A stretch of DNA of 59,210 nt, taken from NCBI GenBank assembly GCA_000585075.1, contig JEMY01000028.1, positions 1 to 59,210 on the forward strand, in the 5' to 3' direction. Below the pieces are notes generated by a model that did no database searches, was not told the origin of the DNA, and worked only from the letters and a program-made list of their open reading frames with translations. The position numbers and the translations under genes are program-made. The stretch comes from Candidatus Accumulibacter regalis (GTDB lineage: Bacteria > Pseudomonadota > Gammaproteobacteria > Burkholderiales > Rhodocyclaceae). Positions 39,503 through 53,153 of the stretch are shown here, piece by piece. How positions within the stretch are numbered: the stretch's first letter is position 1; every line of letters starts with the position of its first letter.

Positions 39503-39688
39503 CACACCCCGCCCACTGCACACAGTCGGCTTTTGGGGCAAGCGGAGCGCGCAGGCCCTCAAGGGCCGGAGGCGTCAGGGATCAAGCCGGATGGCCGCGA
39601 TTCGGCACGAAGCGCGGGGCGCAGCCCGCGAGCCCGACGGCGGTACGCCGGTACGCCGGGACGCCATGCAGTTCTGCCTACTGATGAC

Positions 39689-39725
39689 TTGCACAATGAT
39701 TCAATAAATGTTGTATTATCGAATA
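39689..39725 (+). promoter_or_regulatory. Arsenic operon promoter and ArsR operator
   Basis: ATTCAATAA at 39699-39707 and TTATCGAAT at 39716-39724 form an imperfect dyad with 8 of 9 bases matching and an 8-base spacer, like an ArsR box. A -35-like TTGCAC is at 39689-39694 and a -10-like TATTAT at 39714-39719. The arsR ATG at 39726 is so close that the mRNA may be leaderless. ArsR would leave the dyad when arsenite binds. Confidence 0.65.
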
Positions 39726-40055
39726 ATGAACGAGACCCAAGCTGTTTCCGCCCTGAGTGCCTTGGCCCATGCCCAGCGTCTGCGCGTGTTCCGCGCCCTG
39801 GTCGTCGCCGGCCCCGAGGGTTTGACGCCCAGCATCCTGGCCGACCAGCTCGACGTGGCCCGCAACACCCTGTCCTTCCATCTGAAGGAGCTGGCGCACG
39901 CCGGCCTCGTCACGATCGAGCAGCAGGGCCGCAACCTGATCTACCGCGCCGAGTACAGCCGCATGAACGGCCTGATCGGCTACCTGACCGAGCACTGCTG
40001 CCAGGGCGGCGTGTGCGAGGTCAGCCCGTCTTCCGCCATCTGCACCACCTGCTGA
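39726..40055 (+). CDS. arsR: ArsR arsenite-responsive repressor
   Basis: A 109-residue winged-helix repressor starting MNETQAVSALSALAHAQRLR. The recognition part is TPSILADQLDVARNTLSFHL. The C-terminal tail carries several cysteines (EHCCQGGVCEV and ICTTC), likely to bind As(III). It opens the rightward arsenic operon, with a dyad just upstream at 39699-39724. No good ribosome site precedes the start, so the transcript may be leaderless. Confidence 0.93.
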   Translation: MNETQAVSALSALAHAQRLRVFRALVVAGPEGLTPSILADQLDVARNTLSFHLKELAHAGLVTIEQQGRNLIYRAEYSRMNGLIGYLTEHCCQGGVCEVSPSSAICTTC

Positions 40056-40066
40056 AAGGACTTCCC

Positions 40067-40528
40067 ATGAAACGCTTCCACGTCCACCTGAACGTCGATG
40101 ACCTGAACCGCAGCATCGGCTTCTATTCCCAACTGTTCGCCGCGCAGCCCGCGCGCACCGAGAGCGACTACGCGAAGTGGATGCTCGAAGACCCGCCGGT
40201 CAACTTCGCCATCTCCACGCGCGGCGGCAAGCCGGGCATCGACCACCTGGGCATCCAGACCGACGATGCCGAGGAACTGGCTGGCCTGAAGGCCCGCGCG
40301 CAGGCCGCCGACATGGCACTGCTCGACGAAGGCACCACGACCTGCTGCTACGCGCGCAGCGAGAAGCACTGGATCACCGACCCGCAAGGTGTGGCCTGGG
40401 AGCATTTCCACACGCTGGGCAACATCCCCGTCTTCAACGAAGCATCCCAGCCCGCAAGCGGCGCCGCTGCGGCGTGCTGCGCGCCAAGCGATGGCCGCGC
40501 CGCGAAGCCCGCTGCATCTTGCTGCTGA
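40067..40528 (+). CDS. arsI: ArsI-like organoarsenical C-As lyase (VOC family)
   Basis: A 153-residue vicinal-oxygen-chelate protein with RFHVHLNVDDLNRSIGFY, GIDHLGIQTDD and WEHFHTLG, giving the metal ligands His, His and Glu. It has the adjacent cysteine pair TTCCYA typical of ArsI, which demethylates trivalent methylarsenicals. The Cys-rich tail (AACCAPS and SCC) is an extra. The gene is 11 bases after arsR. CadI-like cadmium protein is an alternative name for the same family. Confidence 0.85.
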   Translation: MKRFHVHLNVDDLNRSIGFYSQLFAAQPARTESDYAKWMLEDPPVNFAISTRGGKPGIDHLGIQTDDAEELAGLKARAQAADMALLDEGTTTCCYARSEKHWITDPQGVAWEHFHTLGNIPVFNEASQPASGAAAACCAPSDGRAAKPAASCC

Positions 40529-40540
40529 CGCGAGGCACGC

Positions 40541-41038
40541 ATGACGACTGAAGCCACCTACAACGCGCTGTTCATCTGCACGGGCAATTCGGCGCGTTCG
40601 ATCCTCGCCGAAGGCATCCTCAACGAGCTGGGCAAGGGCCGGTTTCACGCCTGGTCGGCGGGCAGCCATCCCAAGGGCGAAGTCCATCCGCTGGCGCTCG
40701 CCACGCTGGAGCGCCTGCATCTGCCGGCGACCGGCTACCGCAGCAAGAGCTGGGACGAGTTCGTGGCGCCGGATGCGCCGGTGTTCGATTTCATCTTCAC
40801 CGTCTGCGACAACGCCGCCGGTGAGGCGTGCCCGCTGTGGCCGGGCGAGCCGGTATCGGCCCATTGGGGCGTGCCCGACCCAGCGGCCGTCGAAGGCACG
40901 GAGGAACAGCAGCGCAAAGCGTTCACGGACGCCGCGATCACGCTGCGCCGGCGCATCGAGCTGTTCCTGTCGCTGCCCCTGAAAAGTCTCGATGCCATGT
41001 CCTTGCAGCGCGAGCTGCGCGACATTGGCCGCCAGTGA
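40541..41038 (+). CDS. arsC: ArsC, thioredoxin-coupled arsenate reductase
   Basis: The 165-residue product has the low-molecular-weight phosphatase loop FICTGNSARSILAEGILN and later Cys in TVCDNAAGEACPLWPG, which form the disulphide relay of ArsC from the LMW-PTP type. It converts arsenate to arsenite, which the Acr3 pump exports. It lies 12 bases after arsI and 10 before acr3. Confidence 0.92.
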   Translation: MTTEATYNALFICTGNSARSILAEGILNELGKGRFHAWSAGSHPKGEVHPLALATLERLHLPATGYRSKSWDEFVAPDAPVFDFIFTVCDNAAGEACPLWPGEPVSAHWGVPDPAAVEGTEEQQRKAFTDAAITLRRRIELFLSLPLKSLDAMSLQRELRDIGRQ

Positions 41039-41048
41039 GGCCAGCACG

Positions 41049-42143
41049 ATGACCGCAGGAGCCGATACCGCCGGCCGCGCGCCGGCGGCGCCCGCCATGA
41101 GCGTCTTCGAGCGCTACCTGACCGTGTGGGTGCTGCTGTGCATCGTCGCGGGCATCGCCCTGGGCCAGCTCGCGCCCGGCGCGTTCCAGGCCGTCGGCCG
41201 CATGGAAGTGGCCCAGGTCAATCTGCCGGTCGGCCTGCTGATCTGGATCATGGTGATCCCGATGTTGCTCAAGGTGGACTTCGGCGCACTCGGCCAGGTG
41301 CGCCAGCACTGGCGCGGCATCGGCGTGACGCTGTTCGTCAACTGGGCCGTCAAGCCGTTCTCGATGGCGCTGCTGGCCTGGCTGTTCATCCGCCAGGTCT
41401 TCGCCGACTGGCTTCCGGCCGACCAGCTCGACAGCTACGTCGCCGGCCTGATCCTGCTGGCCGCCGCACCTTGCACGGCGATGGTGTTCGTCTGGAGCCG
41501 GCTGACCGGCGGCGATCCGATGTTCACTCTGTCGCAGGTGGCGCTGAACGACACCATCATGGTCTTCGCCTTTGCGCCCCTCGTCGGGCTGCTGCTCGGG
41601 TTGTCGGCCATCATCGTGCCCTGGGACACGCTGCTGACCTCGGTGGTGCTCTACATCGTCATCCCGGTCATCATCGCGCAGGTGTGGCGCCGAGCGCTGC
41701 TGCGTCAGGGCCAGGCGGCGTTCGACCGCGCGCTGGCGCGCATCGGTCCACTGTCGATCGCGGCGCTGCTGCTGACGCTGGTGCTGCTGTTCGCCTTCCA
41801 GGGCCAAGCCATCCTGCAGCAGCCGCTGGTGATCGCCATGCTGGCGGTGCCGATCCTTATCCAGGTGTTCTTCAATTCCGGCCTGGCCTACTGGCTCAAC
41901 CGCAAGGTTGGCGAGAAGCACAGCATTGCCGGCCCCTCGGCGCTGATCGGCGCGAGCAACTTCTTCGAGTTGGCCGTGGCAGCGGCCATCAGCCTGTTCG
42001 GCTTCCACTCCGGCGCTGCGCTGGCCACCGTGGTCGGCGTGCTGATCGAGGTGCCGGTGATGCTGCTGGTCGTGCGCCTGGTCAACCGATCTCGTGGCTG
42101 GTACGAACAGGCCCCGCGCAACGCAGCGAGACATCCGGCATGA
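41049..42143 (+). CDS. acr3: Acr3-type arsenite efflux permease
   Basis: The 364-residue membrane protein has about ten hydrophobic segments (VWVLLCIVAGIALGQLA, VGLLIWIMVIPMLL and others). The conserved LAAAPCTAMVFVWSRLTGGD contains the Cys of the Acr3 family. The start at 41049 gives MTAGADTAGRAPAAPAMSV. It exports arsenite made by the two arsC products. The stop overlaps the next start as ATGA. Confidence 0.94.
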   Translation: MTAGADTAGRAPAAPAMSVFERYLTVWVLLCIVAGIALGQLAPGAFQAVGRMEVAQVNLPVGLLIWIMVIPMLLKVDFGALGQVRQHWRGIGVTLFVNWAVKPFSMALLAWLFIRQVFADWLPADQLDSYVAGLILLAAAPCTAMVFVWSRLTGGDPMFTLSQVALNDTIMVFAFAPLVGLLLGLSAIIVPWDTLLTSVVLYIVIPVIIAQVWRRALLRQGQAAFDRALARIGPLSIAALLLTLVLLFAFQGQAILQQPLVIAMLAVPILIQVFFNSGLAYWLNRKVGEKHSIAGPSALIGASNFFELAVAAAISLFGFHSGAALATVVGVLIEVPVMLLVVRLVNRSRGWYEQAPRNAARHPA

Positions 42144-42970
42144 GTATCGTCACGATCTATCACAACCCGGATTGCGGCACGTCGCGCAACACGCTGGCAC
42201 TGATCCGTGCAAGCGGCATCGAGCCCACGATCATCGAGTACCTGAAAGCGCCGCCTGACCGGGAAATCCTGAAGGCAATGATCGCGCGGATGGGCATGCG
42301 CGTGCGGGATGTGCTGCGCGTCAAGGGCACGCCCTACAAGGAATTGGGCCTGGACGCCATGCATTGGAGCGACGACCAGTTGATCGACCAGATGCTGGCG
42401 CACCCGATCCTCATCAATCGGCCCATCGTGGTGTCTGCGCTGGGTGTGCGGCTGTGCCGTCCTTCGGACATTGTGGTCGAGCTGTTGCCGCAGCGGCAGG
42501 CAGGCGAGATCCGCAAAGAGGACGGCACGCTGCTCCTCATAGACGCGCCAATCGCCGGCGGCGATCCCGACCTTGCCCTGGCGCTGCAGGGGGCCGGGCT
42601 TCCCACGGATGACTTGACCGAGCCGGGACGCCGATTCTTCGCCTATGTCACGGTGTCAGGGGAGCGCGTGGGCTTTGGTGGCTTCGAGCACATGGGCCAG
42701 AACGTGCTGGTGCGCTCCTTGGTGGTACTGCCGCAAGCGCGCCATCGCGGCATCGGCGGCGGCATGCTCGCGCTGCTGCTGCGCCGCGCCTTCGACGAAG
42801 GGGGGCGCGAAGCCTGGTTGCTGACCACGACGGCCGCGCCGTTCTTCGAGCGCGCGGGCTTCAAGCCGATGGAGCGTACAAGCGCACCGGCTTCAGTACT
42901 GGCGACGCGGCAGGCTGCGAACTTGTGTCCTGCCAGCGCGGCGTTGCTTAGGCGGTCGATCCATCTGTAG
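42140..42970 (+). CDS. ArsC (glutaredoxin type) fused to a GNAT domain (ArsN-like)
   Basis: The first 140 residues are a glutaredoxin-coupled arsenate reductase: TIYHNPDCGTSRNTLALIR and RPIVVSALGVRLCRPSD. Residues about 150-276 are a GNAT domain with ARHRGIGGGMLALLLRRAF and TTAAPFFERAGFKP. ArsN-type acetyltransferases act on arsinothricin, so the fusion may couple arsenate reduction and detoxification of an organoarsenical. It is the last gene of the ars operon and overlaps acr3 by four bases. This gives the operon two unrelated ArsC enzymes. Confidence 0.88.
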   Translation: MSIVTIYHNPDCGTSRNTLALIRASGIEPTIIEYLKAPPDREILKAMIARMGMRVRDVLRVKGTPYKELGLDAMHWSDDQLIDQMLAHPILINRPIVVSALGVRLCRPSDIVVELLPQRQAGEIRKEDGTLLLIDAPIAGGDPDLALALQGAGLPTDDLTEPGRRFFAYVTVSGERVGFGGFEHMGQNVLVRSLVVLPQARHRGIGGGMLALLLRRAFDEGGREAWLLTTTAAPFFERAGFKPMERTSAPASVLATRQAANLCPASAALLRRSIHL

Positions 42971-42977
42971 TGCAGAA

Positions 42978-43322
42978 GGGCGAATTTCCGAGGACACTGT
43001 CTCGGATTTCTCGGCGGGCAGCCCGTTCCCCGATTTCCGAGACAGTGCCTCGGAAATCACAGGCCGGGGGTATGCGGCGAAGAACCGCCGCATGTTCTCC
43101 AGATTGTCCGGGCTGAACCCGCGACCGAAGCGCACGGTCAGGTCGGCGGACAGCCGGGCAATCAACTGTTCGCCATATCCCGCGCGACGCTTGCCCTGTT
43201 GCTCGGCCTCCACGATGCGGCGGCCAATCTCTCAATAGCTGGCCGTCATGCCGTCGTGGATGCCGGCGTAGCCGGCAGGCAGGGGCGGCACCTTTTACTG
43301 CTTTGGGCATCCGGGCGCTCAT
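42978..43322 (-). pseudogene. Broken DUF1016 (YhcG-like) nuclease gene, N-terminal part
   Basis: The - strand starts MSARMPKAVKGAAPA at 43322, then shifts by one base: the next frame reads AGYAGIHDGMTASY, a TGA stop, then EIGRRIVEAEQQG and GRGFSPDNLENMRRFFAAYP. That is a DUF1016 N-terminal domain with a frameshift, a missing stretch after GMT and a Trp-to-stop change. The nuclease C-terminus is absent. Toward the end a linker repeat (SETVSSEIR) is encoded by the inverted repeat at 42984-43057. This gene is dead. Confidence 0.75.
42984..43057. repeat. Inverted repeat of self-palindromic arms
   Basis: ATTTCCGAGGACACTGTCTC at 42984-43003 reappears inverted at 43034-43057, with arms that are themselves palindromic (TTTCCGAG-ACAGTGC-CTCGGAAA). 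It lies in the interdomain linker of the broken DUF1016 gene and just behind the arsC-GNAT stop, where it could act as a terminator-like hairpin. Confidence 0.65.
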
Positions 43323-43604
43323 GTCGTGGCCTCCTGGGGCTGGCGCTGCCGCGCCTTCGTGATGGTCTGGCGCCGGGGGTCGCCACCAGCTCGGCCGCCT
43401 GGCGCACAGGATTGTCCTCGGTGTGGACGTAGCGCATGAACATAGCCACGGTCTTGTGCGCTGTCAGCGCCATGCCGACCTTGAGCGGCACGCCCGAATT
43501 GGCAATGTCCGTCGCCGAGCGGTGGCGGATGCCGTGGGTGCCGACCTTCGGCACACCGGCACGGTCAAGGATGCGCCGCCACGCCTGATAGTAGGAGTGG
43601 AGGC
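43246..43604 (-). pseudogene. Integrase 3' fragment cut by the IS element
   Basis: The frame encodes YYQAWRRILDRAGVPKVG, HGIRHRSATDIANSG and HKTVAMFMRYVHTED, the catalytic His-Arg and Tyr end of a tyrosine integrase. It matches 51741-51960 of the intact integrase at about 90 percent by eye, in the same orientation. Homology stops exactly at 43604, where the IS begins, so the N-terminal two thirds are lost. It is the remnant of a second integrase copy. Confidence 0.85.
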
Positions 43605-45238
43605 TTAACCCGCATATTTCACGCCTACCCCCAACTGCCCACCAACGTGCCGTATTGCGCTGGATGTGAGTGAGCCGAGGTCGCGTTGGTGGGTGCAGGC
43701 CAGGTTTTGCTCGCGCGCGGCGCGCATGCAGGCGCACCAACCCCCACCCCGGCTTGGGTTGCGGGCCATTTTTGTGTCATCGCGCCGGCCAGGCGCTGCT
43801 TGTCTTTCAGGGTGGGCGCAATTGGCTCATGGCGTGCGCGAAGGTCTGCGCGCTGGGCCAGTTGGAGGCCAGGTACAGGCGGATGCGCCGCGTGTTGCGG
43901 GTCACCACCGCAGCGACCTTGAGCAGCTTGATGCGCAGCGTGGCCACCTGTGCCACTGCCAACTCGGTGCCTTGCAAAGCCAGCGCGCGCAGCCGCTCGA
44001 TCAACACATAACCCAGCGCCGCCAGCAGCATGCGCAGTTGGTTGGAGCGCAGCACATGGCAACTCGTGCGCGTGGCGAACAGGCCCACCTGCGCCTCCTT
44101 GATCCGGTTCTCTGCTTCGCCACGCTGGCAGTACAGATCGTCGTAAAGCGCCTGGGGCTTGCCACTGAGGTTGGTGACGATAAAGCGGGGGTTGCAACCC
44201 TGCTCGCCCCATTCGAGCCGTGTAATCACGCGCCGCTCGTGGGGCCAGCTCTGCGCGGCATAGTTGAACTCATCAACCAGGCGCTGCTTGATGTCCGTGC
44301 GCTCGTACTCATCCTTCATCATGAACTCGGCAAACGCCACCTGCGCTTGCAGCCGTGGGTTGCGCGCCAGGCCCACGATGTAGTGCACGCCAGCGCGCTC
44401 GCACCAGTTCAGGATGCGCTGTCGGCAAAAGCCCGAGTCGCCCCGGAACACGATGCGCACCTCGGGCCAGACTTGGCGCAACCGACGCACCAGCAGCCTC
44501 AAAATGGCCGCAGCATGGCGCGCCCCATCGATATCGCTGGGCCGCAGGTAGGCGCACAGCAGTTGCTGACCGCAGAACACGTACAGCGGGAGATAACAGT
44601 AGCTGTCGTAGTAGCCATGAAAGAAGCGGCCCTCTTGCTGGCCGTGCAAGGGGTTGTCGGTGGCATCGAAGTCCAGCACCAGTTCCTCGGGCGCGGTCTT
44701 GAAGCTGGCGATGAATTGATCCACCAGCACCTCGTGCAAGCGCCACGCGGTGGCGCGGTCGGCCCACTTCTCCAGTCGGCACAGGGTGGGCGCACTGGCC
44801 ACCTCGCGGTCCACGCCGACAGCGGTTTGCAAGGCCACGTCGCGCCGCAGCGCGCCGTGGTCGTTCAGGTCTTCCCAACCCAGGGCCAAACCATAGACGC
44901 GCTGGCGCAGCATGTCGCGCACACCGTGCGTGATCAGCAAAGGACTGCGTGGATCGGCGATGCAGCGTGCCGCCGCATCCATCAGGCCCAGCTTGCGGTC
45001 GACCTGGCCGAGCAACATCACGCCGCCATCGCCGCTCATGCTGCCCCCGTCAAACCGGCCCTCCACCACACGGCGGCCCAACCGCCCAAAGTCCAGCGTT
45101 CCAACATCAATTTTTTCGGTACAGTTTGGTTTCGGCATCGCCCGCTCGTTTGATTAAGATTCGATACCTCGATTTTCGAGCACACAAGGGCGATGCCGTC
45201 CTCATTTACGGACCAATACGGTGAAATATCCGGGTTAA
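43605..45238 (-). mobile_element. IS1380-family insertion sequence
   Basis: Terminal inverted repeats are TTAACCCGCATATTTCAC at 43605-43622 and its near-complement GTGAAATATCCGGGTTAA at 45221-45238, with one mismatch. The length of 1634 bases and the single transposase (43807-45138) fit IS1380. Flanking bases are AGGC on the left and CGGC on the right, so no perfect target duplication is seen. It separates the integrase fragment from leader copy 3, which argues for a deletion next to the IS. Confidence 0.85.
43807..45138 (-). CDS. IS1380-family DDE transposase
   Basis: A 443-residue transposase starting MPKPNCTEKIDVGTLDFGRL. Visible motifs include GGVMLLGQVDRKLGL, ELVLDFDATDNPLHGQQEG (a catalytic Asp region), VRIVFRGDSGFCRQRILNWC (second Asp), and GEAENRIKEAQVGLFATRT (Glu region). 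The DDE acid triad is intact, so the element may still move. It fills most of the IS, with 200 bases on the left and 100 on the right as terminal regions. Confidence 0.9.
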   Translation of the reverse strand: MPKPNCTEKIDVGTLDFGRLGRRVVEGRFDGGSMSGDGGVMLLGQVDRKLGLMDAAARCIADPRSPLLITHGVRDMLRQRVYGLALGWEDLNDHGALRRDVALQTAVGVDREVASAPTLCRLEKWADRATAWRLHEVLVDQFIASFKTAPEELVLDFDATDNPLHGQQEGRFFHGYYDSYCYLPLYVFCGQQLLCAYLRPSDIDGARHAAAILRLLVRRLRQVWPEVRIVFRGDSGFCRQRILNWCERAGVHYIVGLARNPRLQAQVAFAEFMMKDEYERTDIKQRLVDEFNYAAQSWPHERRVITRLEWGEQGCNPRFIVTNLSGKPQALYDDLYCQRGEAENRIKEAQVGLFATRTSCHVLRSNQLRMLLAALGYVLIERLRALALQGTELAVAQVATLRIKLLKVAAVVTRNTRRIRLYLASNWPSAQTFAHAMSQLRPP

Positions 45239-45260
45239 CGGCTTCTTGTGATCGAGGATC

Positions 45261-45395
45261 GCGGGGCAACCGGGCCCAGCACGGCGCAGCGCAAGCTGTC
45301 ACAGGGTCGAAGACGGCCACGGCCGCAAGCGCCGAAGGCGCGAGGCCCTTGACGGCGAGAACGCCGTGGTACGGTGTAGGGACAGCAAGACCGTC
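45261..45395 (-). promoter_or_regulatory. Structured repeated leader, copy 3 (orphan)
   Basis: This copy matches 38555-38712 and 39342-39502, including the ACGGCG-TTCT-CGCCGT hairpin on the - strand. In the other copies a gene starts just downstream on -, but here the IS follows at 45238. The gene it served was apparently lost when the IS arrived or rearranged. The remaining gap to the TIR gene (45396-45616) holds ICE repeat DNA and probably the TIR operon promoter. Confidence 0.6.
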
Positions 45396-45616
45396 TCCAT
45401 GCGACGCATGAACTCTGGCAAGCGGAGCGCGCAGGCCTGTCCAGGCCGGAGGCGTCAGCGATGGACGCCCGTAGGGGCGAGACGCCAACGGTGGCTCGAT
45501 GCGAAGTACGACAGCGCGGCCCATTCGGGGACGCCCCAAAATCGGGTATCTTTAGAAACAACAGATTCCCGTATTGGGTCTCGCTTGGTTAGAACACTGC
45601 CATTGCAAGGAACGGC

Positions 45617-46759
45617 ATGCCAGCCCTATATCAACTTGCCCTGCTTGGAACACCAACTGCAGTTCAAATTTCCGAACTTGAAGAAGTCATCGGAAAGGCT
45701 GTCGGCATGTTCAATTTGCGGTTGGGGCATGAGATTGGATGGGAGGTTTGTCCCGATGAATTCAATCCAGACCAACAGCGATCGTCTGCTGCGGCATTTT
45801 TCGGAGGTCATGAGCCTCCTCTTGCCAATGTGGCAAGACTGCTGGCGCGAGGCATCCCATTGCTCCCGGTCGCCTCTGACGTCAATCGAGTCAGTGCAGA
45901 AATCCCCGCATTGCTGCAGCCGCTCAACTGCTTAGCATACGCCGCAGGTGGGCCGCAACGTGTCGCGTCTGCTTTGCTGGAGTGTGCTGGGCTCCTTCCT
46001 CGACAGCGCCGGGTGTTCGTAAGCTATCGTCGGGGCGAGGCTAGGGAAGCAGCCTTGCAGCTATTCGATGCGCTGTCTGCTCGGCTATTTGATGTATTTC
46101 TCGATACACATGGTATTCCACCTGCAGAAGATTTCCAGACAATGCTATGGCACCGGCTTTGTGACTCGGATGTCCTGCTGATGCTCGACACGCCAGGATA
46201 TTTTGAAAGCCGTTGGACGAGTGCTGAGTTCGGACGCGCTTTGGCCAAAGGCATCAGCGTCTTGCGGGTCGGTTGGCCTGACACAACGCCTTCTGCGCGC
46301 ACGGCAACGGCCAGTCGGGCGGAACTGTTACCTGAAGAAGTCGATCCGACGACCGGACGCATCGCAGACGGTGCGGTGGATCGCATTTGTCTTCAACTGG
46401 AGGAAGTTCGCAGCCAGAGTCACGCGGTTCGCTCTGTCAACCTCGTAAGCAATCTGCGCAATGCCATTCAAACAATCGGCGGCCAAGTCGTCGGAGTGGG
46501 CGCCAATAGAGCTGTATATGTCCAACTGCCCGATGGGCGAAATGTAGTTGTTTATCCAACGGTCGGTGTTCCCACGTCAACTACGCTGCACGATGCGTCT
46601 ACGAACTCACCGGAACAATCCGTTGCCGTGGTCTACGATCACGTAGGTCTGCATCCCAGGTGGCTGGGCCATCTGGAATGGTTAGGACAGCACATTCACT
46701 CCGCTAGGTGGGTTAAAGCCAGCGAGGCGGGTTGGCAATTCGCGGACTGGGAGGCGTAG
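45617..46759 (+). CDS. TIR-domain protein, first gene of the + strand immune operon
   Basis: The 380-residue protein has an N-terminal 130-residue module of unknown fold and then a TIR domain: RRVFVSYRRGEAREAALQLF, SARLFDVFLDTHGIPPAEDF and DVLLMLDTPGYFESRWTSAE near residues 135-215. The Glu in RWTSAEFGRAL is in the place of the catalytic NADase Glu. The last 130 residues form another domain (VVGVGANRAVYVQLPDGRNVV). A ribosome site AAGGAA precedes the ATG. The SLOG gene follows two bases after the stop. Bases are more AT-rich than the ICE backbone. Confidence 0.88.
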   Translation: MPALYQLALLGTPTAVQISELEEVIGKAVGMFNLRLGHEIGWEVCPDEFNPDQQRSSAAAFFGGHEPPLANVARLLARGIPLLPVASDVNRVSAEIPALLQPLNCLAYAAGGPQRVASALLECAGLLPRQRRVFVSYRRGEAREAALQLFDALSARLFDVFLDTHGIPPAEDFQTMLWHRLCDSDVLLMLDTPGYFESRWTSAEFGRALAKGISVLRVGWPDTTPSARTATASRAELLPEEVDPTTGRIADGAVDRICLQLEEVRSQSHAVRSVNLVSNLRNAIQTIGGQVVGVGANRAVYVQLPDGRNVVVYPTVGVPTSTTLHDASTNSPEQSVAVVYDHVGLHPRWLGHLEWLGQHIHSARWVKASEAGWQFADWEA

Positions 46760-46761
46760 CC

Positions 46762-47343
46762 ATGAGTGCAATCTTCCTCTCGGCCAGCGTGCCACTTGTA
46801 GGGCGTGGCACTTACCACGAAACCGCCGATCCATTTCTTATCCAATGTGCGGTGAGAGAACTGGTCATAGCAGTCATTCGCCAGTACAAGATCGTGTGGG
46901 GTGGGCATCCTGCGATTACCCCGATGATTTGGAGCATATGTGAAGACTTGGGGGTCGACTACTCGCAGTCTGTTGTCTTGTATCAGAGCACGTTCTTTGC
47001 AGAAATCTTCCCTGAAGAGAACAAGCATTTCCAAAATGTAGTCTTCACCGATGCAGTCCCTAATGACAGGGCGGCAAGCTTGCTTGTCATGCGCGAACAG
47101 ATGCTCTCACGTGAGGACTTAAGCGCTGCTGTGTTTATTGGTGGAATGGATGGGGTAGAAGCTGAACATGAGCTTTTCAGGCGCTTCCATCCTGCAGCCA
47201 AGGTGCTCCCGGTGTCCTCGCCAGGCGGAGCGGCGCTGAATCTCGCCAAGGACCATAGCTATTTCACCGGGGAAGCGCTTGTCGATGTGGACTTTGCTCA
47301 GCTCTTCCATGAGCATCTGGCGGTGCCCTTGGCTGGCAAGTAG
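46762..47343 (+). CDS. SLOG-superfamily nucleotide-sensor-like protein
   Basis: The 193-residue protein starts MSAIFLSASVPLVGRGTYHE. It has a Rossmann-like pattern: YKIVWGGHPAITPMIWSICE, SAAVFIGGMDGVEAEHELF and VLPVSSPGGAALNLAKDHS, typical of SLOG proteins (possibly the SLOG cluster 3 family) that bind nucleotide signals made by TIR or related enzymes. I chose the start at 46762 behind a GGAGG site, rather than the longer frame from 46732. No effector domain is attached, so it must act with a partner, probably one of the two flanking TIR proteins. Confidence 0.75.
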   Translation: MSAIFLSASVPLVGRGTYHETADPFLIQCAVRELVIAVIRQYKIVWGGHPAITPMIWSICEDLGVDYSQSVVLYQSTFFAEIFPEENKHFQNVVFTDAVPNDRAASLLVMREQMLSREDLSAAVFIGGMDGVEAEHELFRRFHPAAKVLPVSSPGGAALNLAKDHSYFTGEALVDVDFAQLFHEHLAVPLAGK

Positions 47344-47395
47344 AGTCAGTTCGTTTCCCGATCCCGTGCTCTAAAAAATCAACCGAGGATTATTC

Positions 47396-47881
47396 ATGCC
47401 ACGGAAAGTTTTCTACAGCTTTCATTATCAACGCGACAGTTGGCGCGCATCCAAGATACGCAATATTGGGGTTGTAGAGGGTAACCCGTCAGCAAGCGAT
47501 AATAAATGGGAAGAAGTGAAGCGAGGCGGTGATACCGCGATCAAGCGCTGGATTGACGATCAATTGCAAGGGCGGACATGCACAATTGTTTTGGTTGGTG
47601 CGGAAACGGCAAATCGCCCCTGGATTCGATATGAGATTGAGCAGTCATGGAACAGCGGAAAGGGACTCCTGGGGATACGTGTCCACAAGCTCTTGGACCA
47701 CAACCAGCAACCATCAGTGGCAGGGGCCAATCCGTTCGACTCATTTACCTTGAACGACGGTAGAAAGCTATCCTCCGTCGTCCGCGTCTACGATCCGCCG
47801 GGAGGCACCAGTAGCGCGGTCTATACCTCCATCAGCGACAACCTGTCGAGTTGGATCGAAGCAGCGATCGCCGCTCGCTAG
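47396..47881 (+). CDS. ThsB-like TIR protein (MTH538/DUF1863 type)
   Basis: A 161-residue protein of the small TIR-like class: RKVFYSFHYQRDSWRASKIR, NIGVVEGNPSASDNKWEEV, DTAIKRWIDDQLQGRTCTIV and RPWIRYEIEQSWNSGKGLLG. This resembles ThsB of Thoeris, which makes a cyclic ADP-ribose signal, though a second role is possible. The Glu in YEIEQSW is the likely catalytic residue. It lies 52 bases after the SLOG gene and ends 16 bases from the convergent UDG gene. Confidence 0.85.
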   Translation: MPRKVFYSFHYQRDSWRASKIRNIGVVEGNPSASDNKWEEVKRGGDTAIKRWIDDQLQGRTCTIVLVGAETANRPWIRYEIEQSWNSGKGLLGIRVHKLLDHNQQPSVAGANPFDSFTLNDGRKLSSVVRVYDPPGGTSSAVYTSISDNLSSWIEAAIAAR

Positions 47882-47897
47882 AAGTCAGAACATCTCG

Positions 47898-48560
47898 TCA
47901 AAACAACGATCCGGTACTCATTGGTTGCCCATAGAGTTCCGAGATTTGCGTCTGGAACTGTGTCTGTCCTCCGTAGCTAGGGTGCCTCACGCAAATTACC
48001 GGTACAGAATCCGTGATGCGATGGGCCGCAGCGGTGGCATCATTGCCGATGGCAACGATGCGAGAAGGCTTCAGCAAGACAATGAGTTGTTGGAGCAGTT
48101 CTTCGCCGGCGCGTCTTTCGTGCGCGTTGTGCTGGCGGTTGGTGAATGGATCTCCAGATTCATGCGGATGAAGGGGAAAGACATTCCAGAGGAAGATGCG
48201 AGCATCAATGTGTTCTAGCATGCCCCATATGACCGCCGCGGTTCGTTCAGCTACAGCACTTCCTATCGTCGGCCGCTCAGCGATCAGATCGAGATTCCAG
48301 CGCTTGGCGTGCTGGCTCATGTGAACGTCGTCAGTCAGGGCTAGCCCAGTGCGGCGCCCTCCGCGATATCCGAGGTCTCTCCCGATCCAGATCGCATCTA
48401 CAGGCTCCTCTGTTGCACGACGCAACATGGCGGAAAGTGCTGCAGCACGGCGACGCGGCGCATCGCGCCGATCATGGACTTCACATCGATCCGAATACGG
48501 ATTGAAGCAGTCTTCGAATTGCAGCGAAGCAACTGCCTCAACGAATGGGTGGATCTTCAT
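47898..48560 (-). CDS. Uracil-DNA glycosylase superfamily-like protein
   Basis: A 220-residue protein with DAIWIGRDLGYRGGRRTGLA in place of the UDG motif 1 water-activating loop, FLWNVFPLHPHESGDPFTNR as motif with Asn, and ICVRHPSYGGQTQF as the His-Pro-Ser motif of the UDG fold. It is smaller than most UdgX. In a defence operon it may remove or detect modified or uracil-like bases. It overlaps the MazG gene by four bases. The family call is from motif reading; enzymatic activity is not shown. Confidence 0.75.
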   Translation of the reverse strand: MKIHPFVEAVASLQFEDCFNPYSDRCEVHDRRDAPRRRAAALSAMLRRATEEPVDAIWIGRDLGYRGGRRTGLALTDDVHMSQHAKRWNLDLIAERPTIGSAVAERTAAVIWGMLEHIDARIFLWNVFPLHPHESGDPFTNRQHNAHERRAGEELLQQLIVLLKPSRIVAIGNDATAAAHRITDSVPVICVRHPSYGGQTQFQTQISELYGQPMSTGSLF

Positions 48561-49693
48561 TTTTCAGACTCAAGTGGCATGTATTTGATGGTGCGTTGTT
48601 CTCGGTTTCCAATGATCCAGCCGCCTTGATTTTCCTTAAGCTGTCGGAAGACCGCATACCCTTCCAAGATGGCCTTTTCCCAGAGCTTCAGTGGGCACTT
48701 CTCTACCTCGTAACCACTCACGAACTCGCCGATGGTCTTGAGAATTCCGAGTGAGACCTTTTCCTGGTTCTCGAAGAAATTCAATTCTTTGGCTCTTGAG
48801 AAAATCCAAGCTGCAACCCCTTCTTCAACGACGATGGCTCGACCGCTGTCCTGCTCTTCATCGAATTTCGGATTGCTCTTTCGTTTGTGTTTGATCAATG
48901 CCCGCATCACGGGTGACCAGTGCAGGATCGCCGCATTCGCAAAATGGAAGACGTCATGGAACCGGTAACCATCGCGGTCGGCAATGTTGTCGGTTAAGGG
49001 ATCTCCAATGAATACGCCATTCCATTGGAGATAACTCTTACCACTGCCTCGTTGATTGACTCGGATTCTGAATTCTCTGGGTAGCTGTTCCTCGATTCCA
49101 AATTTACTGTCGAAATCAAGGTCAACCAGATCATCTGCTTGTGGTTCCAAGAACGCGCCGCGCGCTTTCCGAAGGTTGGCGCGAGCCACTTCCGAAAATG
49201 CTAGTTCGGCCGCATGGATTGCATCCAGGTAAGCCCGCGCGAACGCGACCAAATCAGTGCGCGCAGGGGTGCTTCCCATTAGGGCTGCTGCTGACTGCCC
49301 CAAACGTGCCAGGGTGGCATCTAACGATGCAGTCGCCGCAATAGGCACTGCGATATAGGCCAATGCACCTTCAGCGATATCACTTGCAGCGCCAACATTC
49401 TTAAAATTTCCGTGGTTGGCGGCTTCCCCGAAGATATCCTCAAGAGGGATATTCAGGCGCCTGCAGATTGCAGCCAAGTACCAAAGAGTGTCGCCGAATT
49501 CTTCTTCCGCCGCTCTCTTGTAGCCAGGGTATGCTGATTTATCTCGAACGTGCTTTTTGGCCGTGGCCATTATTCCGCCAACTTCTCCATATAGCCCTTG
49601 GAGAACCGGATTGAAGTCGTTCGGATTGAGTACGTCTGTGGCTGCAATTCCCGCAGCGTAATCCGAGAGCAAGAGGGAGCCTTCCTTTTTCAT
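48557..49693 (-). CDS. MazG-like pyrophosphohydrolase domain protein with C-terminal extension
   Basis: The first 100 residues hold a MazG-like core: GLYGEVGGIMATAKKHVRD and AAEEEFGDTLWYLAAICRRL, with the E-E-x-x-D metal-binding pattern. MazG-type enzymes cleave NTPs to NMP and diphosphate. Residues 190-378 form a different domain with DGYRFHDVFHFANAAILHW and VVEEGVAAWIFSRA that I do not recognise. The gene follows Nmad2 after three bases and overlaps the UDG start. In conflict systems MazG domains may limit nucleotides or clean modified ones. Confidence 0.75.
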   Translation of the reverse strand: MKKEGSLLLSDYAAGIAATDVLNPNDFNPVLQGLYGEVGGIMATAKKHVRDKSAYPGYKRAAEEEFGDTLWYLAAICRRLNIPLEDIFGEAANHGNFKNVGAASDIAEGALAYIAVPIAATASLDATLARLGQSAAALMGSTPARTDLVAFARAYLDAIHAAELAFSEVARANLRKARGAFLEPQADDLVDLDFDSKFGIEEQLPREFRIRVNQRGSGKSYLQWNGVFIGDPLTDNIADRDGYRFHDVFHFANAAILHWSPVMRALIKHKRKSNPKFDEEQDSGRAIVVEEGVAAWIFSRAKELNFFENQEKVSLGILKTIGEFVSGYEVEKCPLKLWEKAILEGYAVFRQLKENQGGWIIGNREQRTIKYMPLESEK

Positions 49694-49696
49694 CGG

Positions 49697-50323
49697 TCAC
49701 CTGCGAAGAGTCAGCCATTCGAATGGGGCGCCTTGGTAGCCGCTCACTGCCAAGTTGCGAATCCATTGCTCAAGATTTCCAACTAATTGCGCATCGTCAA
49801 AGGCTGTGAGGCCTATTCCCGTTTTGCATAGAGGGCGACCTTGCTGATCTTGCAATTCATCAGGAAACGCAGGGCCCTCACCCCCGAAATATACGAAATC
49901 GTTGCTGATCAAAACCCTGTTGACGCCTGTATCACGGGCCACATGGTCAGGGTTGAGCGAGCCATCGGGGCGGGAGTGAAATGAGTCTCGCTGCTGCCAA
50001 GCAACCCCAGCCGCAGCCCTGAAGTAGATGTTGTCCCCGCAACTTTGCTTCCGGCTGCCATTGCGGTACGGCTTCTTGGATTCAAACCGCGGGTCTCGGC
50101 CATACTCGTCAAATGTCATTGCTTCGGTGACCCGCATCGCATACACGAGATGCCCACCGCGTCGGACACTTCGATCATTGCTTCCACTACCGACCACCCA
50201 ATCGCCGATGTCAGCGCTTCTGCGGATACTGGGTTTGCAAGTCGCGAGCGTGCAGTAGCTATAGAAGGGGTTGGGTGCAAAACCACTGTCGTACCGCACT
50301 ACATAGGAGTGAATACGTGTCAT
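49697..50323 (-). CDS. Nmad2-like nucleotide-modification-associated protein
   Basis: A 208-residue protein starting MTRIHSYVVRYDSGFAPNPF. The block YCTLATCKPSIRRSADIGDW with VVGSGSNDRSVRRGGHLVYA is typical of the Nmad2 domain (nucleotide modification associated domain 2), known from bioinformatic work on modified-base and conflict systems. Later VLISNDFVYFGGEGPAFPDE is also characteristic. The precise reaction is unknown. Its start overlaps the ThsB-like stop by one base (TGATG-like), so translation is coupled. Confidence 0.75.
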   Translation of the reverse strand: MTRIHSYVVRYDSGFAPNPFYSYCTLATCKPSIRRSADIGDWVVGSGSNDRSVRRGGHLVYAMRVTEAMTFDEYGRDPRFESKKPYRNGSRKQSCGDNIYFRAAAGVAWQQRDSFHSRPDGSLNPDHVARDTGVNRVLISNDFVYFGGEGPAFPDELQDQQGRPLCKTGIGLTAFDDAQLVGNLEQWIRNLAVSGYQGAPFEWLTLRR

Positions 50324-50790
50324 CAGCAGGGATGCCGCTTGAGTGGAACCGGGTCGCAGGCACCGCCGTCAGGCTTTTCCCACGAGTCCTTCCCGTTGAT
50401 CGCGTCAATGATTGAATCACCGTTCCACCCAACCAAGGCGTCCGCATGTTCTTTCAGCGCATCTGGTAGGTCGCATTCCTTCTCACCATGCTCCCAAACA
50501 CCAACAATGCGCTTGCCCTGTTTGGCCGCATATTCGATTTCCCAGTTCACCCAATCGCTGTTCTTGGTTTGGGGAGAGACATAGCAAATGAACACCCCAG
50601 CCCAATTGATGGCAGGCGCAAGGATCTGCGTCTTTATGTAGTGCTCATCAGTGGCATTGTTGAACTTTCCTGTATGGATCGAGGAATCCCGGACCTCCAG
50701 ACCTTTCGGAGCCAACAAATCCTTGAGCTTCTGGAGCCCATGATCGTCCTTATGGACATGGCTGATGAATACATTCCTTTTGTCTGCCAT
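50323..50790 (-). CDS. Second ThsB-like TIR protein, first gene of the - strand operon
   Basis: A 155-residue TIR-like protein: RNVFISHVHKDDHGLQKLKD, GLEVRDSSIHTGKFNNATDE and DWVNWEIEYAAKQGKRIVGV. It is a different branch from the + strand ThsB-like protein. The Glu in NWEIEYA is the likely active residue. It leads the operon TIR-Nmad2-MazG-UDG. The 86 bases upstream to higA must hold its promoter or it is read through from higBA. Confidence 0.82.
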   Translation of the reverse strand: MADKRNVFISHVHKDDHGLQKLKDLLAPKGLEVRDSSIHTGKFNNATDEHYIKTQILAPAINWAGVFICYVSPQTKNSDWVNWEIEYAAKQGKRIVGVWEHGEKECDLPDALKEHADALVGWNGDSIIDAINGKDSWEKPDGGACDPVPLKRHPC

Positions 50791-50876
50791 CTGTCACCTC
50801 CATGGTTTTGCATGTTTTGAAGATCGTAACCGGGTTTGTGGCTGGTGCAGTAGGGGCTACTGGCCAGCTTGCTCGC

Positions 50877-51179
50877 TTAAAGAATTGCCTGTAGTCCCTT
50901 GTCGGCGATGACGTTGAGCAGCTTGAGGGTCGGCCCGGTGGGATGGGTTTCGCCTTGCTCCCACTTGCGCACGGTCGAGGCCGACGTGTGCAAATGAAGA
51001 GCAAACACCGGCTGGCTGAACTTCAAGGCTTCGCGCAGACGTTTGATGTCGGCAGCACTGAGTTGCCGCACCGGCGGCGGACAGATCGCGTCGAACTCGC
51101 GCATCGTCACCTTGCTGATCGCTCCCGCTTCGTGGAGCGCAGCCAAGTCGCCACGCAGGGATTCAATGATCTTGCTCAC
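50877..51179 (-). CDS. higA: HigA-type antitoxin (XRE HTH)
   Basis: A 100-residue HTH antitoxin: LSAADIKRLREALKFSQPVF then LHTSASTVRKWEQGETHPTG. It starts at GTG 51179, overlapping the end of higB by 17 bases. It binds DNA and the HigB toxin. The palindrome at 51563-51577 is a good operator. A longer frame to 51440 is a shadow of higB. Confidence 0.88.
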   Translation of the reverse strand: MSKIIESLRGDLAALHEAGAISKVTMREFDAICPPPVRQLSAADIKRLREALKFSQPVFALHLHTSASTVRKWEQGETHPTGPTLKLLNVIADKGLQAIL

Positions 51180-51546
51180 AATGCACCTCCAATAACGCGC
51201 CCGACCGCAACGCCTTCGACAAAGCCTCCGCGGACAGTTCCAGAAACACCTTACCGGCGAACTGCAGCGCCTTCTTCTCGTCTTGCGTGATGTTCGCCTT
51301 GTCGCTCTTGGGGAACCCATGCAGGAACACGTAGCGGCTACCGATCCGGGCCGACAGCAGCGTGCGGTAACCACCGCTCTTGCCGCTGCCGGGGCGTGCA
51401 ACCCGCTTCTTATAGAGGAAGCCGCCCAAGTCCGCTTCAATCAGACCGCTTTCCATCTCCTGAACCGCTTTGCACAAGGCGGCATCAGGCAGCTTCTCGC
51501 TTGCCTGCCACCGCGCAAAGTCCTTTCGCTTGAGAACGCGCTTCAT
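51163..51546 (-). CDS. higB: HigB/RelE-like toxin
   Basis: A 127-residue toxin with the RelE-like pattern: KDFARWQASEKLPDAALCKA, VARPGSGKSGGYRTLLSARI and YVFLHGFPKSDKANITQDEK. It likely cuts mRNA on the ribosome until HigA neutralises it. The start at 51546 has a GGAGGT ribosome site; the annotated start four codons upstream is less likely. Toxin precedes antitoxin, as in HigBA. It may stabilise the island. Confidence 0.88.
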   Translation of the reverse strand: MKRVLKRKDFARWQASEKLPDAALCKAVQEMESGLIEADLGGFLYKKRVARPGSGKSGGYRTLLSARIGSRYVFLHGFPKSDKANITQDEKKALQFAGKVFLELSAEALSKALRSGALLEVHCEQDH

Positions 51547-51562
51547 CTTGACCTCCAAACTA

Positions 51563-51577
51563 TACCCGAAACGGGTA
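51563..51577. promoter_or_regulatory. Palindromic operator of higBA
   Basis: TACCCG-AAA-CGGGTA is a perfect 15-base palindrome located 16 bases before higB. A -10-like TATAGT on the - strand overlaps its edge. This fits the binding site of the HigA repressor. Confidence 0.7.
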
Positions 51578-51685
51578 CACTTTTCCAGACCCCCGCGCGA
51601 TGCCCGGGCGGGGAGGGTCGCTGGGCAGATTGTCGTGACAGCGATACGACAATCTGGGCCGACAGGGCTGACCGCTGGCCACTGG

Positions 51686-52888
51686 TCATGTGGTCACCTC
51701 TTTCGGCTCCTGGCGCATGCCGATGACCGACTTGCGCCGGCTGGCCACCAATTCGGCCGCCTTACGCACCGGGTCGTCCTCGGTGTGGACGTAGCGCATG
51801 AACATCGCCACGGTCTTGTGCGCTGTCAGCGCCATGCCGACCTTGACCGGGATGCCGGAGTTGGCAATGTCGGTCGCTGAGCGGTGGCGGATGCCGTGGG
51901 TGCCGACCTTCGGTACGCCGGCGCGATCAAGGATGCGGCGCCATGCCTGGTAGTAGGAATGGGGGCCGAGTGGTTTGTCGTGATCGTTGATGGCTGGACA
52001 GATGTAGGGCGATTTGCCATAGCGAGGTGCGTTCGTCAGCAGCCGACGGGCTTCCTCGCTCAACGGCTTCGACATATCGCCCGTCTTGCTGTCCGGCCAG
52101 ACAACCCGGCCATTGGGCAAGTCGAGCCAATCCCACTGCAACAGCAGGATTTCCGACATGCGGGCCGCGAACTCGAATTGCAGCCGGACAGCCAGCAGGT
52201 GGATCGGATGCTCCAGTTCCTCGGCCTCGGCCTTGTCCAGATAGGCGAACAGCTTGACCATCTGTTCGTCGGTGATGAGGCGGGTCGAGCCTTTCTCCGG
52301 GTACTTGGGCACGTGGCGGCAGGGATTCGAGCCGTCGGGCCGGTAGCCCCACAGCTCGGCCAGGTTGAACATCTTGCGGACAAGCGACAGCACGCGATTG
52401 GCCTGCGTCGGAGACTTCTCCATGCGCTTCATCAGCGCGGTGATGTCGTGGCGCGTGACCTCGTGAACCTTCTTGCTGCCGAAGGCCGGGATGACGAAGC
52501 TGTCGATCTGGTACTGGTAGCCGGCCTGCGTGCTGGGCTTGTTGTGCGGCCTGGAGTGGTCGTCCATGAACCGGCCGCACAGCTCCTTGACCGTCAGCGC
52601 CTTGCGGGCCTCGGCCTTGTCGAGTCCGGGGTCGCCGCCGCGCCGGACTTCGGCCAGCCAGTCTTGTGCCAGCGATCGGGCCTGTTCGACCGTCAGCTCG
52701 CCGAACTGGCCGAGGGCGGGCTTGCGCCGCACGCCGGAGTTCGTGCGGTACTGAACCATAAAGACCTTGCGGCCCGTTGGTGTTATCTTGCACAAGAAGC
52801 CCGGAACGAGCGTATCCCGGAGTTCCACGTCGCAGGTTTGCGCCTGCGCCGTGTCAACGACGGACTTGGTGAGTTTGATCTTTGCCAT
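51686..52888 (-). CDS. int: P4-type tyrosine integrase of the island
   Basis: A 400-residue integrase with an Arm-binding N-terminus (DTLVPGFLCKITPTGRKVFM), the Arg in FEFAARMSEILLLQWDW, the His-Arg pair in GTHGIRHRSATDIANSG and the Tyr in FMRYVHTEDD. It directs excision and integration at the neighbouring tRNA-Leu gene. It is read away from the att site. Classical Tn4371 uses a different integrase and site, so this ICE is a hybrid or a stack. It has a 3' fragment paralogue at 43246-43604. Confidence 0.93.
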   Translation of the reverse strand: MAKIKLTKSVVDTAQAQTCDVELRDTLVPGFLCKITPTGRKVFMVQYRTNSGVRRKPALGQFGELTVEQARSLAQDWLAEVRRGGDPGLDKAEARKALTVKELCGRFMDDHSRPHNKPSTQAGYQYQIDSFVIPAFGSKKVHEVTRHDITALMKRMEKSPTQANRVLSLVRKMFNLAELWGYRPDGSNPCRHVPKYPEKGSTRLITDEQMVKLFAYLDKAEAEELEHPIHLLAVRLQFEFAARMSEILLLQWDWLDLPNGRVVWPDSKTGDMSKPLSEEARRLLTNAPRYGKSPYICPAINDHDKPLGPHSYYQAWRRILDRAGVPKVGTHGIRHRSATDIANSGIPVKVGMALTAHKTVAMFMRYVHTEDDPVRKAAELVASRRKSVIGMRQEPKEVTT

Positions 52889-53065
52889 GAGGTGCTCCTG
52901 AAAGGCCCCGATTCCAGGGGCCGGCTAGGAGCCAGGCGGAGGGGAACCGGGGCGGTTTGCATCGCGCACCGGGATATGATCGAAGGCATTGGTCTGGCGG
53001 AAAACCTGCTACAGCAAGCCTCATCCAAGTCCAGCGTTAGCCCGGTGCGGATGCCATGCTCTGGC

Positions 53066-53116
53066 TTAAAATCTCTCGGCCTTGCGGCTGTGCCGGTTCG
53101 ATCCCGGCTCCGGGCA
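53066..53116 (+). other. tRNA-Leu 3' fragment, attachment site of the island
   Basis: CTTAAAATCTCTCGGCC followed by TGCCGGTTCGATCCCGGC and TCCGGGCA form the anticodon loop (anticodon TAA), variable arm, T-arm and acceptor strand of a tRNA-Leu. The 5' half is missing: the anticodon stem partner is not present upstream. The full tRNA should sit at the other end of the element, left of this window. CGA instead of CCA follows. Confidence 0.8.
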
Positions 53117-53153
53117 CGACCCTTTCACCGCCGGCCCTCTGCCCTGGTTTCCG

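Follow-up and report, generated by a model that had tools for sequence, protein, structure and literature searches.

Background

In type I Thoeris, the effector ThsA is activated by an ADP-ribose signal made by a TIR protein (excerpts of PMC7272460 and PMC11204291), and one staphylococcal Thoeris is described as sensing phage capsids (excerpt of PMC12578639). Among defence proteins of the uracil-DNA-glycosylase (UDG) superfamily, Brig1 is the documented case, an enzyme that removes a modified base from the DNA of phages (excerpt of PMC11078745). The cited parts of the DefensePredictor study (PMC13092281) name as predicted defence domains MazG, MazG-C and one described as nucleotide modification associated, include UDG in the legend of Fig. 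6F, state that the nucleotide domains of that figure are not yet validated, and report the validation of a thymidylate synthase and a 5-hydroxymethyluracil kinase. Here we describe a seven-gene block at positions 45617-50790 of a 59,210-nt contig of Candidatus Accumulibacter regalis (JEMY01000028.1, assembly GCA_000585075.1; the whole contig is "the window" below), in which a type III Thoeris operon converges on a cassette of four genes encoding a TIR protein (TIR7), Nmad2, a MazG_C protein and a UDG. We consider it about an even bet (probability near 0.5) that this block joins type III Thoeris, here ThcB4-ThcA and the further TIR protein TIR3, to a second, modified-thymine input module, TIR7-Nmad2-MazG-UDG, that serves swappable outputs.

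Two converging operons, one of them a named system

All seven open reading frames (ORFs) of the two converging operons are intact and have Pfam identities (Table 1). The gene order proposed in a sequence-only reading of this DNA was borne out, as were its count of three TIR proteins of two classes (Pfam TIR_2 for ThcB4, ThsB_TIR for TIR3 and TIR7), its minus-strand junctions of four bases or fewer (from TIR7 on, successive genes overlap by 1 base, lie 3 bases apart and overlap by 4 bases in the sequence), the 16 bases between the final stop codons of the two operons (47882-47897) and the more AT-rich composition of the block (G+C 0.528-0.557 in 1-kb bins from 46001 to 51000 vs 0.627-0.708 in bins from 26001 to 43000, to the left). 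On the plus strand, two bases separate the ThcB4 stop codon from the ThcA ATG.

The adjoining genes ThcB4 and ThcA score 475 and 264 bits against NCBIfam models NF058526 and NF058525, whose curated cut-offs are 220 and 110 bits, respectively. These are the two type III Thoeris models that could be tested; no other NCBIfam model of this system matched any of the 20 proteins scanned, and none matches any of the four minus-strand genes. Judged by its sequence, the plus-strand operon is the named system, ThcB4 and ThcA of type III Thoeris, with a ThsB-like TIR, TIR3, added. The candidate reading of the block as a wholly new immune system was rejected, given that NCBIfam already names this operon. 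In the literature search the founding description of type III Thoeris was not found; one passing mention was (in an excerpt of PMC12390725), and the searched passages of two Thoeris papers (PMC12847820, PMC13232231) hold nothing on this type.

PADLOC assigns ThcB4, TIR3 and TIR7 alike to ThsB. TIR3 is close in sequence to PDB entry 8wcf and more distantly related to ThsB1 (9b7d), and PDB sequence searches with ThcA, ThcB4 and Nmad2 gave no useful match. A Glu residue is invariant in each of the three TIR proteins (Glu204 of ThcB4 among 36 aligned sequences, Glu80 of TIR3 among 31 and Glu84 of TIR7 among 80), and we take it to be the catalytic Glu expected of a TIR NADase. Membership of the TIR family and this invariant residue are the grounds on which NAD-type signalling is predicted here.

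The same gene set, sought in other genomes, recurs under ten further locus labels (L numbers below are such labels; L011 and L029 are one and the same Tistrella locus). The converging block of seven genes is present in Accumulibacter SCELSE-3 (L023), in Tistrella pTM3 (L011/L029) and in L019, L020, L022, L024, L026, L028 and L031. When the window's block was compared with six loci (L011, L019, L031, L034, L040 and L047), the ratio of nonsynonymous to synonymous substitution rates (dN/dS) against L011, L031, L034 and L040 ranged over 0.04-0.17 in six genes and over 0.09-0.10 in TIR3, in each case where computable; for ThcA only the L034 comparison could be computed, with dS saturated in the others. 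The comparison with L047 was saturated for all genes but UDG (dN/dS 0.07), and L019 is too close for the test (few changes; ratios 0 to 0.59).

The cassette recurs beside different candidate outputs

Genome contigs were scanned with an alignment of Nmad2. Of the 412 relatives found, the best 80 underlie all counts "of 80" below; neighbours were counted within 6 kb of Nmad2, and ORF matches under 60 bits were dropped. TIR7 adjoins Nmad2 in 76 of the 80 loci; 74 have MazG nearby and 66 have UDG, both mostly at operon spacing. Six kinds of candidate output stand near Nmad2: ThcA in 29/80 (L030, with its ThcA in two pieces, was scored positive, and the islands of L019 and L020 are nearly identical), a pair of a TIR and a cluster-2 SLOG protein in 19/80, a SLOG-patatin protein in 10/80, a 228-residue membrane protein (TM13) in 8/80, a SIR2-SLOG ThsA in 6/80 and an 865-residue second patatin protein in 4/80. 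At least one of the six is present in 66 of the 80 loci, and in 54 of the 60 that have at least 6 kb of flank on both sides. Across the 80 loci ThcA, cluster-2 SLOG, ThsA and TM13 are mutually exclusive, and the SLOG-patatin protein co-occurs with ThcA in seven.

The output domains were checked by Pfam on one member per class, giving SLOG cluster 2 for the cluster-2 SLOG protein, Patatin with SLOG cluster 2 for SLOG-patatin, SIR2 with STALD for ThsA and Patatin for the 865-residue protein. The TIR of the cluster-2 SLOG pair reached 27.8 bits against TIR_2, slightly below the Pfam cut-off of 28. The one TM13 member scanned had no Pfam match, and its membrane helix was read from its sequence. 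A search of the window's own genome for SLOG cluster 2 found no match, but the search controls were silent as well.

The association of the cassette with variable outputs is well supported, and relatives beside several outputs suggest that the cassette is a plug-in detector; what chemistry it would sense is a matter that we infer, from evidence given further below.

In L060, L062 and L100, a second TIR7-Nmad2 copy lies on the opposite strand beside the 865-residue patatin protein, with a MazG-UDG pair of its own absent, which may represent a two-input or a duplicated arrangement.

Pairing of the two operons

The sequence-only reading had held that the two operons would be unrelated neighbours if they were never found together elsewhere and each worked alone; the 29 of 80 loci in which ThcA lies within 6 kb of Nmad2 show that they do occur together elsewhere. 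For the layout of the two units, ThcA matches above 150 bits were counted at any distance in all fetched loci (33 loci, with L052 at 8.3 kb). Relative to the cassette, ThcB4-ThcA is convergent and downstream in 25 of these (two of which are the same Tistrella locus), tandem and upstream in five, tandem and downstream in two, and divergent in one. A quick Nmad2 tree, many branches of which are weakly supported, implies at least 16 changes of output class; its labels give one output per row by a fixed priority, with L012, L055, L058, L060, L062 and L100 labelled by hand, and 12 of the 82 rows have no output label. The co-occurrence and the four layouts make it unlikely that the two operons are chance neighbours, and the four layouts together with the changes on the tree indicate that the pairing was either remade more than once or rearranged while it was kept, which is hard to explain for idle neighbours. 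In a sample of 369 genomes from the class, one of them the window's own, 6 have Nmad2 and 2 have ThcA, so that a chance meeting within a few kb is unlikely. Among plasmids (tblastn, 1e-5), ThcA was found in 29 records, Nmad2 in 17 and both in 4.

As a control, 18 plasmid records were fetched from the 34 in which MazG occurs, nine of them without Nmad2 in the fetched stretch and nine with it. None of the six outputs was found in the nine loci without TIR7-Nmad2 (L015-L017, L116-L120 and L122), and seven of the nine with Nmad2 (L011-L014, L018, L099, L100, L121 and L123) have one; the exceptions are L014, which is cut by the end of the record, and L121, which has no more than an annotated SIR2 protein at a greater distance. 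On the co-occurrence counts, the four layouts and these MazG controls, "unrelated neighbours" was rejected as the full story.

Five of the control plasmids (L116-L120) carry a MazG-UDG pair beside a helix-turn-helix (HTH) gene, four of them with an annotated C1 peptidase and ImmA/IrrE, and some add a metallophosphoesterase, a thymidylate synthase or a dCTP deaminase. These pairs perhaps belong to a separate plasmid-borne nucleotide system.

A rival reading is that two separate defence systems, each sensing and acting by itself, share one integrase-borne island, their linkage reflecting co-transfer and the clustering of defence genes in islands. Two other bacteria carry the block together with its integrase at 99.67% identity across 7.9 kb, so it travels as one piece, ThcB4-ThcA often occurs without the cassette, the cassette often lacks ThcA within 6 kb (51/80), and some outputs adjoin another TIR. 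On the other hand, one of the five remaining outputs stands near 37 of the 51 ThcA-less cassettes, and the main classes of output are mutually exclusive. The layouts are of four kinds, all six outputs are missing from the MazG loci that lack TIR7-Nmad2, and in several loci the only TIR match beside an output is TIR7. We regard two independent systems as rather unlikely, and the case for functional coupling of the two operons as fair to good. What had been called one combined immune island thus holds as a recurrent pairing (29/80, four layouts), but the operons are separable modules, because the cassette also stands beside other outputs and ThcB4-ThcA occurs without the cassette, and the plus-strand operon had already been named.

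Which TIR protein may serve which output

In L054, the order is ThsA-TIR7-Nmad2-MazG-UDG on one strand, and in L050 and L061 the SIR2-SLOG ThsA is likewise in line with the cassette (TIR7...UDG-ThsA). Three TIR models gave no match besides TIR7 in any of these three loci; by the same models, TIR7 is the sole TIR match in TM13 loci L066, L079 and L080, and the only one besides ThcB4 in L034, L037, L039, L040, L043 and L048. TIR7 can therefore be the sole input to ThcB4-ThcA in the latter six loci. Classical ThsA works with a TIR partner and TIR7 is the only TIR match in L050, L054 and L061, so TIR7 is likely the ThsB of these loci. Given that ThsA responds to a TIR-made signal, TIR7 is best read as a signal maker and the SLOG protein ThcA as the receptor, and the direction from input to output would follow that order.

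ThcB4-ThcA has other inputs than the cassette. It occurs with TIR3-type and other TIRs in the examined plasmids of Enterobacteriaceae, Sphingobium, Acidithiobacillus and Sinorhizobium, with no Nmad2 in the stretch.

The final residue of TIR7 is Cys in 66 of 87 ORFs and a Cys lies within the last five residues in all 87, and no TIR3 ORF has Cys as its final residue. The TIR7 tail perhaps docks on Nmad2 or serves as an acceptor site.

Altered thymine as a candidate trigger

The AlphaFold2 model of the UDG (mean pLDDT, the model's own per-residue confidence score, 89.9) was compared with PDB structures by Foldseek, and the top 15 matches are all SMUG1 chains (E 6e-10 to 3e-7, TM scores 0.59-0.65 by query length). 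Residues Asp62, Gly64, Asn126 and His193 are invariant where aligned among 70 sequences. The predicted fold is closest to that of SMUG1, a 5-hydroxymethyluracil glycosylase, and the UDG may excise or bind such a base. UDG is missing within 6 kb in 14 of the 80 loci, 4 of which carry a 5-hmdU DNA kinase domain (PF18723; Pfam identity checked on one of the four), and this kinase is found in none of the 66 loci that carry UDG. In plasmid loci L018, L122 and L123 the kinase is likewise present and UDG absent. The SMUG1-like fold and the mutual exclusion of UDG and the 5-hmdU kinase both point to altered thymine.

The MazG domain of the sequence-only reading stands in part. A MazG_C domain is present, and Pfam gave no match to the MazG pyrophosphohydrolase domain at E ≤ 0.1; the N-terminal half of the protein has a MazG-like motif and two weak PDB matches (E about 0.1). 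MazG pyrophosphohydrolases carry the metal motif ExxE...ExxD. The ExxD is kept in 75 of 75 sequences, whereas at position 40 the second Glu of ExxE is replaced by Gly (49 sequences) or Ser (26). With this residue lost throughout, the MazG-like domain may bind rather than hydrolyse.

The AlphaFold2 model of Nmad2 (mean pLDDT 92.2) gave 124 Foldseek matches with E ≤ 10 in the PDB, and among the 50 listed there are 20 YTH chains, which come from two proteins. EVE/ASCH-like entries are also among the listed matches, and all are weak. These matches to the predicted structure hint at a reader of modified bases. Nmad2 had no match in the phage collection searched, phage-borne copies beyond that collection not having been looked for.

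Alternatively, MazG and UDG might play no part in sensing and be housekeeping or off-switch components, with MazG/MazG_C degrading the signal or a toxic nucleotide, UDG repairing host DNA, and TIR7-Nmad2 alone acting as the sensor. TIR7-Nmad2 is indeed found without nearby MazG and UDG (L089, L094 and L095, and the second copies of L060, L062 and L100), and MazG-UDG is a portable pair. We nevertheless consider this division of labour unlikely, in view of the frequency of MazG and UDG beside Nmad2 (74/80 and 66/80, mostly at operon spacing), the strong purifying selection on both and the 5-hmdU kinase in 4 of the 14 UDG-less loci. It is also conceivable that the minus-strand operon is a producer of an altered nucleotide and not its detector, with its MazG_C, UDG or 5-hmdU kinase, and Nmad2 supplying TIR7 with a substrate or cofactor for an unusual signal. 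Thymidylate synthase, metallophosphoesterase, dCTP deaminase and nucleotide kinase genes do occur around MazG in related plasmid loci, L121 has a metallophosphoesterase between Nmad2 and MazG, and thymidylate synthase and 5-hydroxymethyluracil kinase are among the validated defence domains in the cited parts of PMC13092281. The 5-hmdU kinase is, however, the only type of this kind among the Pfam-identified neighbours found in at least four loci (eight recurrent clusters have no identity), and the ExxE motif of MazG is broken, which together leave nucleotide production very improbable.

A putative circuit and the evidence that weighs against it

If the cassette is a second input to type III Thoeris, phage DNA or a deoxynucleoside triphosphate (dNTP) pool with altered thymine (5-hydroxymethyluracil or a derivative) would meet the nucleotide and DNA proteins. 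The SMUG1-like UDG would excise or bind the altered base, the MazG-like protein would bind or clear altered dNTPs, and Nmad2 would read the altered base or an abasic site. Nmad2, the near-constant partner of TIR7, might then release that protein to convert NAD+ into an ADP-ribose-type signal; ThcA would bind this signal through its SLOG domain and switch on ThcB4, whose TIR domain would destroy NAD+ and so stop the infected cell. In relatives, the same input might drive SIR2-SLOG (ThsA), SLOG-patatin, a TIR with cluster-2 SLOG, or membrane proteins.

The more specific proposal that an altered-thymine detector, composed of a SMUG1-like glycosylase and an Nmad2 reader, feeds a TIR-made nucleotide signal to at least six output types is put forward tentatively, and an altered-thymine trigger as such has about one chance in three. 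The earlier interpretation overall is partly supported. Its claim that the block may sense modified nucleotides gains from the predicted fold and from the kinase in UDG-less loci, and the Foldseek check that it called for gave a significant match for UDG (SMUG1, E 6e-10) and weak ones for Nmad2.

Several observations count against coupling, altered-thymine sensing or their novelty. The 80 loci are the nearest of the 412 and many are close kin, so the counts are not independent; six full-flank loci (L045, L065, L077, L094, L096 and L097) have no modelled output, L077 having an 8xMP membrane protein directly upstream of TIR7. Of the 29 plasmid records that contain ThcA only 4 also contain Nmad2, and defence genes cluster anyway. 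MazG-UDG pairs also stand with quite other genes, and two of the MazG controls contain genes that may encode effectors outside the six output models, L118 one of CHAT type and L120 one of the caspase family. Another TIR adjoins ThsA in four of the seven ThsA loci (an annotated TIR in L012, TIR3 in L046 and weak TIR matches in L056 and L057), a gene of 184-200 residues adjoins TM13 in three of the eight TM13 loci (L088, L089 and L095, that of L095 being ThsB_TIR), and such outputs, like the window's ThcB4-ThcA with TIR3, may answer the other TIR or both. As to chemistry, the match of UDG to SMUG1 is at noise level by sequence (E 0.83) and an alignment-based search (alignment A3) gave no SMUG1 match at E ≤ 1, the MazG metal motif is broken in all 75 sequences, and the reader-like fold of Nmad2 is not significant, no Foldseek match reaching E ≤ 0.001. 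Finally, NMAD is abbreviated in the Fig. 3 legend of validated systems in the cited part of PMC13092281, where which Nmad is meant is left unstated.

The island and its surroundings

Both the integrase and a RelE/HTH pair lie in the stretch 45232-53120, to which L019, a metagenome-assembled genome of Lysobacterales, shows 99.67% identity across 7.9 kb; in L020, Eoetvoesiella caeni, the same identity extends up to 53109. The right boundary, at about 53105-53120, is common to six loci. A sequence resembling the 3' part of a tRNA gene lies at this shared boundary and is likely the attachment site; no intact tRNA was found in the window. Between the cassette and the integrase lie a RelE-type toxin and its HTH partner, RelE being kept in many close relatives.

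To the left of the block, what remains of a second integrase shares 88% identity with 51731-51966, and a DDE transposase gene comes after it. The stretch that holds these two is absent from L019 and L020, where its flanks are contiguous. Farther left, a second, less G+C-rich defence block contains IetA-IetS (PADLOC 479 and 1068 bits), flanked by an AAA/DUF499-like gene with a small neighbour and by HmaB methylase-like and HmaA/BrxH/DrmD-type helicase-like genes; this nesting of IetA-IetS looks unusual.

Table 1. Features of the seven-gene block and its surroundings in the window
Feature	Coordinates	Strand	Length and domain	Match	Predicted role or remark
ThcB4	45617..46759	+	380 aa, TIR domain ~133-219	Pfam TIR_2	Predicted output partner of ThcA
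ThcA	46762..47343	+	193 aa, SLOG cluster 3	Pfam LD_cluster3 1.2e-77	Predicted signal receptor
TIR3	47396..47881	+	161 aa	Pfam ThsB_TIR 1.9e-28; PADLOC ThsB PDLC00433	Second predicted signal maker
UDG	47898..48560	-	220 aa, uracil-DNA-glycosylase superfamily	Pfam UDG 4.9e-07	SMUG1-like predicted fold
MazG-like + MazG_C	48557..49693	-	378 aa	Pfam MazG_C 3.2e-83	
Nmad2 (nucleotide-modification-associated domain 2)	49697..50323	-	208 aa	Pfam Nmad2 6.8e-74	
TIR7	50323..50790	-	155 aa	Pfam ThsB_TIR 5.2e-22; PADLOC ThsB PDLC00418 7.8e-93	Predicted signal maker of the cassette
RelE-type toxin and HTH partner	50877-51558	-			
Tyrosine integrase	51686..52888	-		Pfam Phage_integrase 2.3e-18	Right end of island, outside the immune unit
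tRNA-like sequence	53082-53116	+			Likely attachment site
Second-integrase remnant	43367-43604				
DDE transposase	43609-45232			PF13701	
Second defence block	10498-24481	+			Contains IetA-IetS

Comparison with known systems

The trigger of Thoeris is known for few systems, and the cassette suggests a different one, the chemistry of the phage genome. Modified bases are a main phage shield against restriction and CRISPR, and bacterial immunity would have a gap closed by a detector aimed at the shield as such. If the proposed circuit is true, it would be an innate immune circuit that couples the sensing of base modification to NAD-derived second messengers, and the pattern of swapping, together with natural operons such as L054, bears on which TIRs talk to which SLOG receptors.

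With respect to SMUG1, which excises uracil and 5-hydroxymethyluracil (excerpt of PMC13230825), the window's UDG has its best fold match there and shares the HPS motif. A weak alignment of the two (the chain being an N58D mutant) pairs the first motif, the central Asn and the HPS motif. Gly64 stands where UNG has its Tyr, a residue that excludes 5-substituted uracils. In contrast, motif 1 of the UDG has Asp where SMUG1 has Asn, as judged by the title of 5h99. Brig1 immunity works alone, and the enzyme excises alpha-glucosyl-hydroxymethylcytosine with the use of Glu147 (excerpt of PMC11078745), whereas the window's UDG has Asn126 (70 aligned sequences) at the apparent equivalent of that position, matched by motif and not by superposition.

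No paper on a TIR-Nmad2 combination was among the literature matches listed, and the Nmad2 search gave DefensePredictor. TIR and Thoeris occur 0 times in the main text of that study as cited (PMC13092281), and its figures may show this very operon. So far as these searches show, output swapping, the SMUG1-like predicted fold and the exclusion between UDG and the 5-hmdU kinase are added here.

Plasmid relatives of type III Thoeris pair ThcB4-ThcA with TIR3-type TIRs (L101, L102, L104, L105 and L124-L127), as does the window's plus-strand operon. Like type I Thoeris, the block has TIR proteins (TIR7 and TIR3) that match Pfam ThsB_TIR and the PADLOC ThsB models, and some relatives have the cassette directly beside a SIR2-STALD ThsA. 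Unlike type I Thoeris, no SIR2 protein is found among the window's seven by Pfam, PADLOC or NCBIfam, and TIR7 is coupled to Nmad2, MazG_C and UDG. We regard the minus-strand operon as a putative new form of Thoeris-type signalling whose input module consists of nucleotide and DNA proteins.

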